Below, piece after piece: positions 25,773 through 38,149 of a DNA stretch of 64,000 nucleotides. The position numbers and the translations under genes were made by a program. Within the stretch, counting starts at the first letter, position 1. Each line of letters begins with the position of its first letter. This DNA comes from Kyrpidia spormannii (GTDB taxonomy: Bacteria; Bacillota; Bacilli; Kyrpidiales; Kyrpidiaceae). The stretch covers positions 2,356,001 to 2,420,000 of the forward strand of contig NZ_CP024955.1 in the NCBI RefSeq assembly GCF_002804065.1, in the 5' to 3' direction. The notes under the pieces are model-generated. The model saw only the letters and a list, made by a program, of their open reading frames with translations, made no database searches and was not told where the DNA came from.

Positions 25773-25802
25773 TTGTCTCGTGTCAGCATTGCCAGGTATA
25801 AT
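25773..25802 (+). promoter_or_regulatory. Sigma-A-like promoter of the pspA gene
   Basis: TTGTCT (25773-25778) and TATAAT (25797-25802) are separated by 18 bases. Transcription would begin near 25809, 63 bases before the pspA ATG. No sigma-54 or ECF-type promoter is evident here. Confidence 0.7.
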
Positions 25803-25871
25803 AATAGAAGTACGGGGCGGCGGTTTTCGCCAGTTTCCGACAATCTCCACAGAGGAGGAGAACAGCCGTTT

Positions 25872-26543
25872 ATGGGCCTGTTCAAACGATTGCGGGATAT
25901 CAGTCTCGCCAACATTAACGCGATGCTCGATCGAGTGGAAGACCCGGTGAAATTGCTGGATCAGTACCTGCGAGATATGGAAGAAGATCTGCAGGATGCT
26001 GAAGAAGCGGTGGCCAAGGCCATCGCGGTGGAAAAGAAACTGAAGGCCCAATTCGAAGAAGCCCAGAGCCTCGCAGAAAAGCGGGCGAAACAGGCGGAAG
26101 AGGCGGTACTGGCTGGAAACGACGATTTGGCCCGGCGGGCCCTGGCGGATAAACGGGAACAAGAAGCAAAGGCAAGGGACTTTCAGAACCAGTATCAGAC
26201 GGCGAAAGCAAACGCAGACGCCCTCAGGGAAAAACTCGCCGAGATGAAAGAAGAGATTGGCAAGATGCGGAACAAACGGGACACCCTGGTGGCCCGGGCC
26301 CAAGCCGCAAAAGCTCAGAAAGAGATCAGCCAGGCGATGTCCGGCATCGGCAGTGACAGTGCGATGCGCGGTTTCCAGAGGATGGAGGACAAGGTTCTGC
26401 AACTGGAGGCCGAGGCGGAAGCCTCCGGGGAAGTGTATAAAAAAGAGCGCTCCCTGGACGATGAGTTCAATGAGTTGCGCCGTAATGCCGATGTCGAGGA
26501 CGAGTTGGCAGCTCTGAAAGCGAAGTTAAACAAAGCGGAGTGA
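25872..26543 (+). CDS. pspA: PspA/IM30-family envelope-stress protein
   Basis: A 223-residue, almost wholly coiled-coil protein of the PspA/LiaH/Vipp1 (ESCRT-III-like) family that coats and repairs stressed membranes. The amphipathic N-terminal helix MGLFKRLRDISLANINAMLD, the conserved EDPVKLLDQYLRDMEEDL and the acidic/basic coiled coil are all present. ATG 25872 is the family start, with GGAGG about 12 bases upstream. It heads the gene group with DUF350, DUF4178 and DUF4247, known companions of PspA. A strong terminator follows, so it may be made in excess over the others. Confidence 0.93.
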   Translation: MGLFKRLRDISLANINAMLDRVEDPVKLLDQYLRDMEEDLQDAEEAVAKAIAVEKKLKAQFEEAQSLAEKRAKQAEEAVLAGNDDLARRALADKREQEAKARDFQNQYQTAKANADALREKLAEMKEEIGKMRNKRDTLVARAQAAKAQKEISQAMSGIGSDSAMRGFQRMEDKVLQLEAEAEASGEVYKKERSLDDEFNELRRNADVEDELAALKAKLNKAE

Positions 26544-26582
26544 CCGTCCGCGGGGCGTAAGGCTACCCGGACCAGTGTCAGA

Positions 26583-26614
26583 AAAACGGGGAGATGGTCA
26601 TCTCCCCGTTTTCT
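26583..26614 (+). terminator. Terminator between pspA and the DUF350 gene
   Basis: A perfect 14-bp stem (26583-26596 and 26599-26612) with a two-base gap and a terminal TTTTCTT. It lies inside the island, 20 bases before the DUF350 start, and probably lets only part of the transcripts continue. Confidence 0.8.
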
Positions 26615-26633
26615 TAAGGAGGGAATTGTCCCG

Positions 26634-27044
26634 TTGACGCTGACTATCCACCAGTTGTTGACGATGGGATTCTGGTTTGCGCTTTTCATTCTTCTCCTCG
26701 TTATCCTTATGGCGGTCGATGTGGCCCTGACGCAATACAACGATTTTGAATTGATCCGGCGGGGGCATACCGCCGTCGCTTTGCGCTTCGTGTTAAAACT
26801 TCTCGCCCACGCGCTGATCATTTCCCGGTCCATGATGATCAGCCAGGTCGTATGGGATGCGGTGGTGATCTCCGCCTACGCTTTCGTGCTGCTCTTGATC
26901 GTCCAGTGGCTATTTGATCTGGTGATGAAACGGGCCGCCGGGATCGACATGAGCAAAAACATTGCGGAGAACCACATGCCCAGCGCCTTACTGTCCGGAT
27001 CCCTGCACGTCGTTGGCGCCGTGATCCTGATGGGATCCATGTAA
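26634..27044 (+). CDS. DUF350 membrane protein
   Basis: A 136-residue protein with four predicted membrane helices in two DUF350-like repeats (about residues 10-32 and 45-70, then 78-100 and 112-135), as in YjfL-type proteins. Such proteins occur with PspA, DUF4178 and membrane spermidine-synthase-like proteins; their activity is not known. The start is TTG 26634 with AAGGAGGG ten bases upstream. The DUF4178 gene follows after 13 bases. Confidence 0.8.
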   Translation: MTLTIHQLLTMGFWFALFILLLVILMAVDVALTQYNDFELIRRGHTAVALRFVLKLLAHALIISRSMMISQVVWDAVVISAYAFVLLLIVQWLFDLVMKRAAGIDMSKNIAENHMPSALLSGSLHVVGAVILMGSM

Positions 27045-27057
27045 AGGAGGAACGCCT

Positions 27058-27570
27058 ATGTCCGTGTGGAAAAGGGTGACCGATCTGATTCGCGCCCGGG
27101 ACCCTCATCCTCCGGTGGTGCAAAAAACGTGGTTCACTTTAAGGCCCGGGGACGTTGTTCAGGTGGAACTGACCGAGTACATCGTCGAAGCCGCCGCCGC
27201 CTTCAACGCCATCCAGAGCATGCATTATGTACTCCGGGACGGGCGCACGTACCGCCATTTGGTGATCGACCGCGGGGAAGGACTGGTTTTCCGCCTGTAT
27301 GAAACCTTGGATGGCAGGCTGGACGACATCGGAGAGATCCCCGAGACGGTACATTTGGACGGAGTGGATTACCATCTCGAATCCCAGCAGGAATCCCCGG
27401 CCTGGGTGGATGGCCCCATGCATCTGGTGCACGGGGACACCGTATATATTTGGAATCATCAAAGCGACGATCGTCGCCTGTTCCGGGTGGAATGGCAGAA
27501 CGGAAAATATTGGTTTGGGCTGGGGCGGTTTACCGAAGAATTTGACGCCAGGATCATTGCCGGCACATGA
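27058..27570 (+). CDS. DUF4178 protein
   Basis: A 170-residue soluble beta-rich protein containing a single DUF4178 domain: TLRPGDVVQVELTEYIVEAA, then HLVIDRGEGLVFRLYETL, and WQNGKYWFGLGRFTEEF at the end. Function is unknown; the family is linked to PspA and polyamine-like enzymes by gene neighbourhood. The ATG start at 27058 has AAGGAGG eight bases upstream. It overlaps the DUF4247 gene by the ATGA arrangement (27567-27570), so the two are translationally coupled. Confidence 0.82.
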   Translation: MSVWKRVTDLIRARDPHPPVVQKTWFTLRPGDVVQVELTEYIVEAAAAFNAIQSMHYVLRDGRTYRHLVIDRGEGLVFRLYETLDGRLDDIGEIPETVHLDGVDYHLESQQESPAWVDGPMHLVHGDTVYIWNHQSDDRRLFRVEWQNGKYWFGLGRFTEEFDARIIAGT

Positions 27571-28328
27571 ACGGACGAACGGTAAAGCGTCGATCTCTTC
27601 GTCTGCTCGCCCTTTTGGCCCTGGCTTTTTCCGTTCTTCTGGCCGGTTGCGGCCTCGACTCGTACGTTTCGAAAAACTATCAGTTTCAGTCGGCGGCGGA
27701 CCAAGGACAGGCATTACAAAAAGTCTATCGCGCGGCGAACAAATCGGTTCCCGAGGTAGCCAAGGAACTGGAGGCACAAGAAAAGCCCCAGGACGTCTCC
27801 CCGGAATCCACGAAAGAGATGTTTTTGGTCTATCCGGATCACCTGGTTCATCTCCAGCAGGACCCGGCCAAGCCTCAAGACACGATCATCGAAATCGATG
27901 ACAAGCAATTTGTCAAAGACAATTATGATCCCTCGTTTTTACAAGGATTTTTGCTTGCGTCGACCTTGGATCGGATTTTCGGCGGCGGCTGGCAGTTCGG
28001 AGGCGGGCATTTCGGCCACTACCGGGGGTATCAGCGCACCCCGAATTATACGCCAAACCCGCCGACGGGGCCCCCGGCCGCAAAGAAGTCCTCTTTGGAA
28101 ATTCCGAAAACGGTGGGCGGGGTGGGAGTATTCACCCGGCGGTCAGATCAGCCGCCGACTCCCAGTCCTTCAGTCAATCCCAGGACCCGACCGTCGTCGG
28201 GATCCTCGGGTAAATCTTGGAGCGGATCCGGCTCGGGCGTGATCTCATCTGGATCCAAGCCATCGAACGGGTTTTCTTCTCCGCCCAAGGTTCGGTTGGG
28301 GGGTGGATCCTTTACACGAAGAAGATAG
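27567..28328 (+). CDS. DUF4247 lipoprotein
   Basis: A 253-residue exported protein. The signal peptide ends in a lipobox, LLAGCG, at about residue 27, predicting a lipid-anchored extracellular protein. The DUF4247 domain (about 35-145) includes YVSKNYQFQSAADQGQA and DNYDPSFLQGFLLAS. The rest is a low-complexity Gly/Pro/Ser/Arg tail containing GGGWQFGGGHFG. The last gene of the PspA island; a hairpin follows at 28333-28367. Confidence 0.82.
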   Translation: MNGRTVKRRSLRLLALLALAFSVLLAGCGLDSYVSKNYQFQSAADQGQALQKVYRAANKSVPEVAKELEAQEKPQDVSPESTKEMFLVYPDHLVHLQQDPAKPQDTIIEIDDKQFVKDNYDPSFLQGFLLASTLDRIFGGGWQFGGGHFGHYRGYQRTPNYTPNPPTGPPAAKKSSLEIPKTVGGVGVFTRRSDQPPTPSPSVNPRTRPSSGSSGKSWSGSGSGVISSGSKPSNGFSSPPKVRLGGGSFTRRR

Positions 28329-28332
28329 ATTT

Positions 28333-28372
28333 GGCCGGCGCCGGGGTGAATCCCTTTGGCGCCGGCCCTTTG
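28333..28372 (+). terminator. Terminator of the PspA island
   Basis: GGCCGGCGCC (28333-28342) and GGCGCCGGCC (28358-28367) form a perfect 10-bp stem followed by CTTTGTT. The T run is short but the stem is very stable and starts a few bases after the DUF4247 stop. Confidence 0.65.
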
Positions 28373-36390: not shown

Positions 36391-36598
36391 TGGAATCCCT
36401 CCTATGTAAGCAGAATGAGTGGTACATCTTTATCCTACACGATTTGCCGAAACAATGCCAAACCTCTCTGCTGCCGACAAAAAGCCTAGAGAGCCGATCG
36501 GCTCCCCACAGCGCCCGGTCCGATTCCCGGACGCCCTGTTCAATGATACAATCAATATTAAATAAGACATATTTGAAGTGGAGGATCCACGAAAATCG

Positions 36599-38149
36599 AT
36601 GAAGCCACATCCCTGGTTGTATGCCTTCGTGTTCGTCACCGGAGCCGCGGTCATGACTTTGGAGATGGCCGCTTCCCGTTTTGCCGCGCCATTTTTTGGC
36701 ACATCCCAAATTGTATGGGCGAACATTATCGGTTTGATTATGATCGCACTGTCCCTGGGGTATTGGTTGGGTGGCCGGCTGGCAGACCGCTATCCTCGGT
36801 GGCACTTGTTATTTGCCGCCGTAGGAATGGCGGGACTCCTGGCCTGTGCCATCCCCTGGACGGGCCCGTGGGTATTCCATCAACTCCAGGCTGGGATTAC
36901 AGGAACGCCCATTCACATTATTGTTTTTTCGTTTTTCGGCATCTTGATCATGTTTGCACCCCCGGTGTTTCTCCTGGCTACGGTCAGTCCCTTTGTGCTG
37001 CGACTTTCGGGCAGAGATGTGAGCGACCTGGGCAAGGTGGCCGGGGCTCTTTACGCATGGTCCACGGTGGGGAGTATCGCCGGAACTTTTGTCACCGCTT
37101 TCGTGTTGATCCCCCGCCTCGGTACTCACATGACCATTGTGCTCACCTCTGGCGCCCTGATCGTCTCCGCCGCGATGGGGCTCACCGCCGTGTCCCCCCG
37201 CCGCTGGTGGTGGTCGTGGTTATTGTTACTCGTTCCCTTGGTGACCGCCTTGGGAGGTCCCCGGGCGGTCAAACCGGTTCAGGGACTTTTATTCGAAACA
37301 GAGACGGAGTATCAGTACGTCCAAGTGGCGGCTCTCCCAGACGGATCGACGGCGCTCATTTATAACGAGGGCGGAGGGGTCCAGTCCTTGCGGCGTCCGG
37401 GAGATGCCCTTGTGCCCCGGGATTACTACAGTTATATGACCCTCCTTCCGTACTTGTCCGGAAATCCTTCTTCCGACCGCATGGAGGGGGTGGTCATCGG
37501 TGCAGCGGGCGGGACCATTCTGCATCTCATCGACCACTACGACCAGGGATCGTTCCCAGGGCTCCGTCTGGAAGGGGTGGAGATCGACCCGGTGGTGGCG
37601 AAGCTCGGGCCGCGGTATTTTGGCCTGAACCCCGCGCGAACGCCCATCCGGGTGGCGGATGGCCGGGCTTTTGTCACGGCTTCTCAGCACACTTGGGACT
37701 TTGCCGTGGTGGACGCGTACAGCCAGCAGATCTACATTCCGTTTCACCTGGCAACCAAGGAGTTTTTTTCCACCCTGGCCGATCACCTAACCACCCGGGG
37801 CGTGATGGCCTTTAATGTAAACGCAGTCAGCCCAGATTCTCCCCTTCTTCTGTCTCTGCTGAAGACCGTTCAAGAGGTCTTTCCCCATTTTGTGGTGATT
37901 CGGGTGCCGGACAGTTACAATTACCTTGTGATAGCGGGGCGCAGCCCTCTCCCCACCGAGGCCCTTCGGGCCCTCGGGATGGGGCGGTCTCCGGTGTCGT
38001 CCATCGCCCGGGAAGCCTTGGCGCACCTGTGGAGACCCACTCCGGAACAACTGAAGCGGGGAATGGTACTGACAGACGACCGGGCACCAGTGGAATATTT
38101 GACCGACTCGATGATTTGGGATGTGGCTGGCCGGGGGATCAGTCCGTAA
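36599..38149 (+). CDS. Membrane-fused spermidine-synthase-like protein
   Basis: A 516-residue fusion. The first 215 residues form about seven membrane helices (beginning KPHPWLYAFVFVTGAAVMTLEMAASR, a family signature). The C-terminal part (about 225-510) has the aminopropyltransferase/methyltransferase fold: VIGAAGGT, EGVEIDP, RVADGRAF and DFAVVDAYS. The usual polyamine-site residues are changed (YYSYMTLLP instead of the YHE type), so the substrate may not be putrescine. Start ATG 36599 has GGAGG about 14 bases upstream; GTG 36578 lacks an SD. Such proteins are known PspA/DUF350/DUF4178 companions. Confidence 0.82.
   Translation: MKPHPWLYAFVFVTGAAVMTLEMAASRFAAPFFGTSQIVWANIIGLIMIALSLGYWLGGRLADRYPRWHLLFAAVGMAGLLACAIPWTGPWVFHQLQAGITGTPIHIIVFSFFGILIMFAPPVFLLATVSPFVLRLSGRDVSDLGKVAGALYAWSTVGSIAGTFVTAFVLIPRLGTHMTIVLTSGALIVSAAMGLTAVSPRRWWWSWLLLLVPLVTALGGPRAVKPVQGLLFETETEYQYVQVAALPDGSTALIYNEGGGVQSLRRPGDALVPRDYYSYMTLLPYLSGNPSSDRMEGVVIGAAGGTILHLIDHYDQGSFPGLRLEGVEIDPVVAKLGPRYFGLNPARTPIRVADGRAFVTASQHTWDFAVVDAYSQQIYIPFHLATKEFFSTLADHLTTRGVMAFNVNAVSPDSPLLLSLLKTVQEVFPHFVVIRVPDSYNYLVIAGRSPLPTEALRALGMGRSPVSSIAREALAHLWRPTPEQLKRGMVLTDDRAPVEYLTDSMIWDVAGRGISP

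Follow-up and report, generated by a model that had tools for sequence, protein, structure and literature searches.

The genome of Kyrpidia spormannii carries a four-gene island that we interpret, with a probability of roughly 0.6, as encoding a trans-envelope module of four components centred on PspA, in a branch from which the membrane-fused aminopropyltransferase of its relatives has been lost. What is new here is that the C-terminus of the DUF4247 lipoprotein changes with the presence or absence of this membrane enzyme. The window, by which we mean the whole stretch of DNA that was analysed, spans 64,000 nucleotides of contig NZ_CP024955.1 (assembly GCF_002804065.1, contig positions 2,356,001 to 2,420,000); coordinates below are positions within the window, and the features given with coordinates lie on the forward strand.

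Gene content and signals of the island

The initial annotation assigned the four genes to PspA, DUF350, DUF4178 and DUF4247, and a Pfam search of the island placed all four matches far above the cut-offs. The first gene, pspA (25872 to 26543), encodes a PspA/IM30 family protein of 223 aa (PF04012, E 2.5e-50) and is followed by a TTG-start gene (26634 to 27044) for a DUF350 membrane protein of the YjfL family (PF03994, E 3.9e-24) with four hydrophobic segments in its hydropathy profile. The third gene (27058 to 27570) encodes DUF4178, a predicted cytoplasmic all-beta protein (PF13785, E 1.3e-19), and its reading frame overlaps by 4 bases that of the DUF4247 lipoprotein (27567 to 28328; PF14042, E 1.8e-24), which scores 87 bits against a gathering cut-off of 27. 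This lipoprotein has the lipobox LLAGC, a core domain and a disordered, basic tail of 113 residues (27987 to 28325) that contains two G-x-F-T-R-R motifs and ends in GSFTRRR; a simple pattern recognised no lipobox in 9 of the 51 DUF4247 proteins of our first set. The island pspA is the only PspA match in the 3.35-Mb genome, and its product reaches 140 of 380 bits against the NCBIfam LiaH equivalog and 134 of 243 bits against the PspA equivalog, both far below the cut-off.

The island was initially described as having its own promoter and terminators and no regulator gene, and both statements agree with what we find. A sigma-A-type promoter-like site, TTGTCT-18-TATAAT, lies upstream of pspA (25773 to 25802); its count taken alone is at chance level (2 found, 1.5 expected), but two congeners (L044 and L045), one of them diverged, have conserved hexamers. 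A hairpin plus T-run 3' of pspA (about 26588 to 26613) is shared with the three nearest relatives (L044, L045 and L046), and several more distant relatives have, by eye, different hairpins at the same position. It is probably a partial terminator favouring PspA over the downstream genes, so that PspA would be made in excess of the other three proteins. The island ends in a GC-rich, intrinsic terminator-like hairpin with a 14-pair stem followed by CTTTGTT (28333 to 28367). No regulator is found among the four genes, and the flanks are unrelated, with a divergent citrate synthase upstream and convergent LUD/lactate-utilisation genes downstream.

The AlphaFold model of DUF4178 is all-beta (pLDDT 90.6), and a fold search of it against the PDB gave no clear match. 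That of DUF4247 has a confident core and a disordered tail, and the core matches SciW (Z 6.2, 3.4 A, 89 aligned), DcrB (Z 5.8), EagT6 (Z 5.7) and Mog1 (Z 4.8), all below Z 8, with a best Foldseek E of 0.08. The modelled core may bear a weak resemblance, below the trustworthy level, to the DcrB/Eag/Mog1-like (DcrB/Mog1/PsbP-like) folds.

Linkage, layouts and the membrane-fused aminopropyltransferase

Among 300 genomes of the window's class, DUF4247 occurs in 67, DUF4178 in 80 and both in 66, so that DUF4178 is present in 66 of the 67 DUF4247 genomes versus 14 of the 233 in which DUF4247 is absent (Fisher 4e-51, with relatedness ignored). The 41 DUF4247 neighbourhoods examined in the class, the window included, contain DUF4178 in 40 cases, PspA in 37 and DUF350 in 35, a linkage far beyond chance that bears out the recurrent association with PspA proposed initially. 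The four-gene set is not indivisible, since PspA is missing from 4 and DUF350 from 6 of these 41 loci. In one family of the class, tandem DUF4247 genes adjoin DUF4178 without PspA or DUF350 (L066 and L068).

The proposed layout of a membrane part, a soluble factor and an external lipoprotein is supported by fusion proteins found elsewhere. Proteins of ~380 residues in Lachnospiraceae and other lineages (L108, L117, L123, L129, L142, L143, L146, L148 and L156) consist of DUF4178, a transmembrane segment, a DUF4247-like domain and a Gly-Lys tail of the form GGG...GK. Their DUF4178 part is recognised by Pfam, and a profile comparison of their outer part with DUF4247, tails removed, gave 75% (E 2.5e-5), rising to 96% (E 2e-9) when two bridging sequences were added. 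As far as sequence can tell, the fusion supports a physical partnership between DUF4178 on the inside and DUF4247 on the outside.

The gene order of the window, PspA-DUF350-DUF4178-DUF4247, is here called layout A. Layout B has the order DUF4178-PspA-DUF4247-DUF350 with a ~520-codon gene after it, and some of these loci also contain a K+-channel gene. The ~520-codon gene encodes a spermine-synthase domain (PF01564) behind a membrane domain and scores 577 bits (cut-off 472) against NF002956, "polyamine aminopropyltransferase"; this membrane-fused aminopropyltransferase (NF002956/PRK03612) is thus encoded in the layout-B sister island and is absent from the genome of the window. A full-length membrane synthase was found in all 8 of the layout-B genomes tested and in none of the 29 layout-A genomes, that of the window included, and 14 of the 300 genomes from the class encode one. 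The layout-A genomes nearly all have only short synthase-domain matches, mostly soluble SpeE-type. A genome-wide search of the window's genome likewise found no full-length membrane-fused synthase, within the island or beyond it, and did find SpeD and two SpeE-type genes, far from the island. We considered whether a fused MFS/spermidine-synthase protein encoded ~8 kb downstream of the island (36578 to 38149) could be the missing enzyme and rejected it: it belongs to the subfamily NF037959 (182 bits) and scores 45 bits against NF002956, whose cut-off is 472.

Across 100 sequences, the membrane part of the synthase has seven hydrophobic segments. Lys plus Arg per sequence amount to 2.5, 2.4, 3.7 and 3.4 on the N-terminus and the even loops and to 0.5, 0.3 and 1.0 on the odd loops, a distribution that predicts an N-terminus inside and a catalytic domain outside, near the Gly-Lys tails. 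We found no description of an outside placement of this domain in the searchable literature, which excludes most subscription papers. The aminopropyltransferase motifs are near-invariant across the membrane synthases, and the synthase domain can be aligned with structurally characterised thermospermine and spermidine synthases. In the family alignment, TM1, TM3, TM4 and TM5 each contain about one acidic residue; such residues would suit the passage of a cation, e.g., decarboxylated SAM or a polyamine.

The DUF4247 C-terminus and Gly-Lys tails on other proteins

The C-termini of 84 DUF4247 proteins divide according to whether the enzyme is nearby. All 53 enzyme-adjacent proteins end in Gly-Lys, typically RGGGPxxGK, and none of the 31 without the enzyme nearby does, nearly all of these having KRR, RRR or a comparable end. 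Where the enzyme is lacking, the tails have a median length of 117 residues and a median net charge of +15 (versus 48 residues and +5 with it), and most of them contain between two and four G-x-[IF]-x-[KR]-R motifs. The odd C-terminus of L053 (...EQSA) has the look of an ordinary basic tail that was frameshifted. Of the two DUF4247 genes in Paenibacillus sedimenti, the one beside the enzyme ends in ...RGGGISAGK and the one beside DUF4178 only in ...RSGSFKRRK. A second Gly-Lys-tailed DUF4247 at L181 (G372, contig 26) stands with DUF350 and without an adjacent synthase, which is encoded elsewhere in that genome.

In a tree of the core domain, from which the tail was left out, the enzyme label maps as one change with a branch support of 36, and the enzyme-free clade is nested inside enzyme-bearing diversity, a position from which we take the enzyme to have been lost in the branch of the window. 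On this tree, the tail switch within DUF4247 was probably one event; Fisher p-values for the association of tail and enzyme within DUF4247 are therefore overstated, and with a support of 36 the correlation within this family is, taken alone, phylogenetically weak. Of 20 genomes with the enzyme, 17 gave the DUF4247 locus in a genome-wide search for the DNA pattern GGGxxxGK-stop, against scattered matches, some without a real stop, in 5 of 20 other genomes, and we rejected chance as the source of the Gly-Lys tails.

We examined a further 80 enzyme loci from many phyla, a few of which repeat genomes of the first set (e.g., L096 and L090). A strict Gly-rich ...GK C-terminus was found in 51 of 2,772 nearby same-strand frames versus 0 of 7,539 other frames, and on looser inspection Lys-terminal tails (FGGK, YGK and GGGHK among them) were noted at 11 more loci. 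No such tail was found at 18 of the 80 loci, some of which are cut by contig ends. Gly-Lys tails beside the enzyme occur in Bacillota, Chloroflexota, Nitrospirota and Bacteroidota, carried by DUF4247 lipoproteins, by DUF4178 proteins and, in the latter three phyla, by short single-TM proteins; a neighbour with a Gly-rich, Lys-terminal end stands at 5 of 8 enzyme loci in Actinomycetota. Three more distant actinobacterial membrane synthases, perhaps of another subfamily, have no DUF350, DUF4247 or Gly-Lys tail nearby (L196, L197 and L198).

Short synthase-adjacent proteins or frames ending in GK or GGK were noted at L099, L113, L128, L135, L152, L154, L157, L159, L166, L172 and L174. Most are about 60 to 90 residues long, a size at which annotation may miss them, and several have one predicted TM helix. 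Before the end, some carry the motif S-x-R-x-N-P-G-x-Y and others S-x-R-x-G-S.

The literature open to searching, outside which most subscription papers fall, gave us no account of the Gly-Lys tail, of its correlation with the enzyme or of the different tail that replaces it in the branch without the synthase.

Relation to known systems and possible roles of the tail

Operons that combine PspA, DUF350 and DUF4178 with a 7TM-fused spermine synthase and a lipoprotein have already been described (Ravi 2024, mSystems, PMC11237479). The initial annotation stands in its families, linkage and component layout, of which the PspA-DUF350-DUF4178 association is not new. As in these operons, the island encodes an external lipoprotein next to PspA, a YjfL-type DUF350 and DUF4178. 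It differs in lacking the 7TM spermine synthase and the CesT/Tir-like chaperone gene beside pspA, its neighbours being citrate synthase and LUD genes, and in having a DUF4247 lipoprotein instead of the Ctha_1186 type, with a basic instead of a Gly-Lys tail, a feature on which the text of that study is silent. Judged by its sequence, the island is a variant of the published system in which the defining part, the synthase, is absent and the tail is switched. The yjfIJKLMC-type operons of E. coli, which comprise the PspA-like YjfJ, the DUF350 protein YjfL, a DUF1190 lipoprotein and an ATP-grasp ligase (Ravi 2024, PMC11237479), likewise join a PspA-like protein to DUF350 and a lipoprotein, but they use the ligase, DUF2491 and DUF1190, none of which is in the island. 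A PspA/LiaH-type protein is also common to LiaIHGFSR and PspFABC, whereas a search limited to the island found no LiaF, LiaS, LiaR, LiaI or LiaG and no PspB, PspC or PspF gene, in keeping with the earlier proposal that the system is distinct from the LiaFSR and PspBC types.

In the trans-envelope module that we favour, PspA would polymerise on the inner leaflet, and its coupling to the lipid-anchored DUF4247 outside would run through a cytoplasmic DUF4178 and the membrane-embedded DUF350. The charge of the DUF4247 tail suggests that it may contact anionic envelope polymers or lipids, and through this contact the module could sense or buttress damaged membrane. In the relatives, the predicted extracytoplasmic catalytic domain most likely has the Gly-Lys tail as its target or recognises it. 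We tentatively propose, at somewhat below even odds, that the membrane-fused synthases are extracytoplasmic protein aminopropyltransferases that extend the C-terminal Lys in the Gly-rich tails (S-x-R-x-x-S...GGG-xxx-GK-COOH) of lipoproteins and small membrane proteins encoded nearby, so that these would display a surface tail decorated with polyamine. The branch of the window would have lost the enzyme and would encode the positive charge in the gene itself, as a polycationic RRR/KRR tail replacing the ...RGGG-xxx-GK end.

Alternatively, the Gly-Lys end may be an unmodified docking, sorting or activating tag that the membrane synthase reads, e.g., as a product sensor or allosteric partner, while the enzyme makes free surface polyamine and the branch of the window lost both; we hold this possible, if rather doubtful. 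The association of tail and enzyme is what any recognition tag would give, and the general aminopropyltransferase motifs, being kept, still leave room for a free amine as acceptor. Against this, the invariant terminal Lys after Gly puts a primary amine at the end of a flexible stem and looks more like an acceptor than a docking motif, and the fusion is reported not to have taken the place of spermidine synthase in E. coli. With reference to Li et al. 2019 (Biochem J), Ravi 2024 (PMC11237479) proposed polyamine monitoring or aminopropylation of other substrates, the latter also speaking against a mere tag. It is very improbable that the tail is recognised by DUF350, PspA or DUF4178 and not by the enzyme. 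These genes are usually present beside Gly-Lys-tailed proteins too, but all three also accompany RRR/KRR-tailed DUF4247, and L100, L150 and L181 keep the Gly-Lys end without an adjacent PspA or DUF4178, so that we rejected each of them as the tail reader and consider the idea largely refuted by the gene distributions.

We regard as unlikely the simpler reading of the island as an ordinary PspA-type membrane-repair operon, in which the three DUFs are accessory anchors that have nothing to do with polyamines and the tails differ through lineage drift. In its favour, no part is better understood than PspA, which acts under membrane stress in other systems, a single event can account for the switch within DUF4247, and the synthases of the window's genome are solely of the soluble SpeE type, encoded like SpeD at a distance from the island. 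Lineage drift is harder to reconcile with a Gly-Lys tail that recurs on different enzyme-adjacent proteins in several phyla (51/2,772 frames against 0/7,539), Actinomycetota among them, or with the co-existence of both tail kinds in the genome of P. sedimenti. DUF350, PspA and DUF4178, found with either tail, do not explain the tail type.

Three families to which no function is assigned, DUF350, DUF4178 and DUF4247, are thereby tied with PspA into what would be one trans-envelope unit, for which the fusion protein provides physical support. The enzyme link and the tail switch are the most informative features of the island: since enzyme and Gly-Lys tail are missing together, the synthase-less branch of the window is a natural control, and the tail becomes a specific candidate acceptor for a widespread orphan membrane-fused aminopropyltransferase. 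We know of no bacterial protein modification in which a C-terminal Lys is aminopropylated, and if this is what the enzyme does, it would be a new kind of bacterial protein modification.
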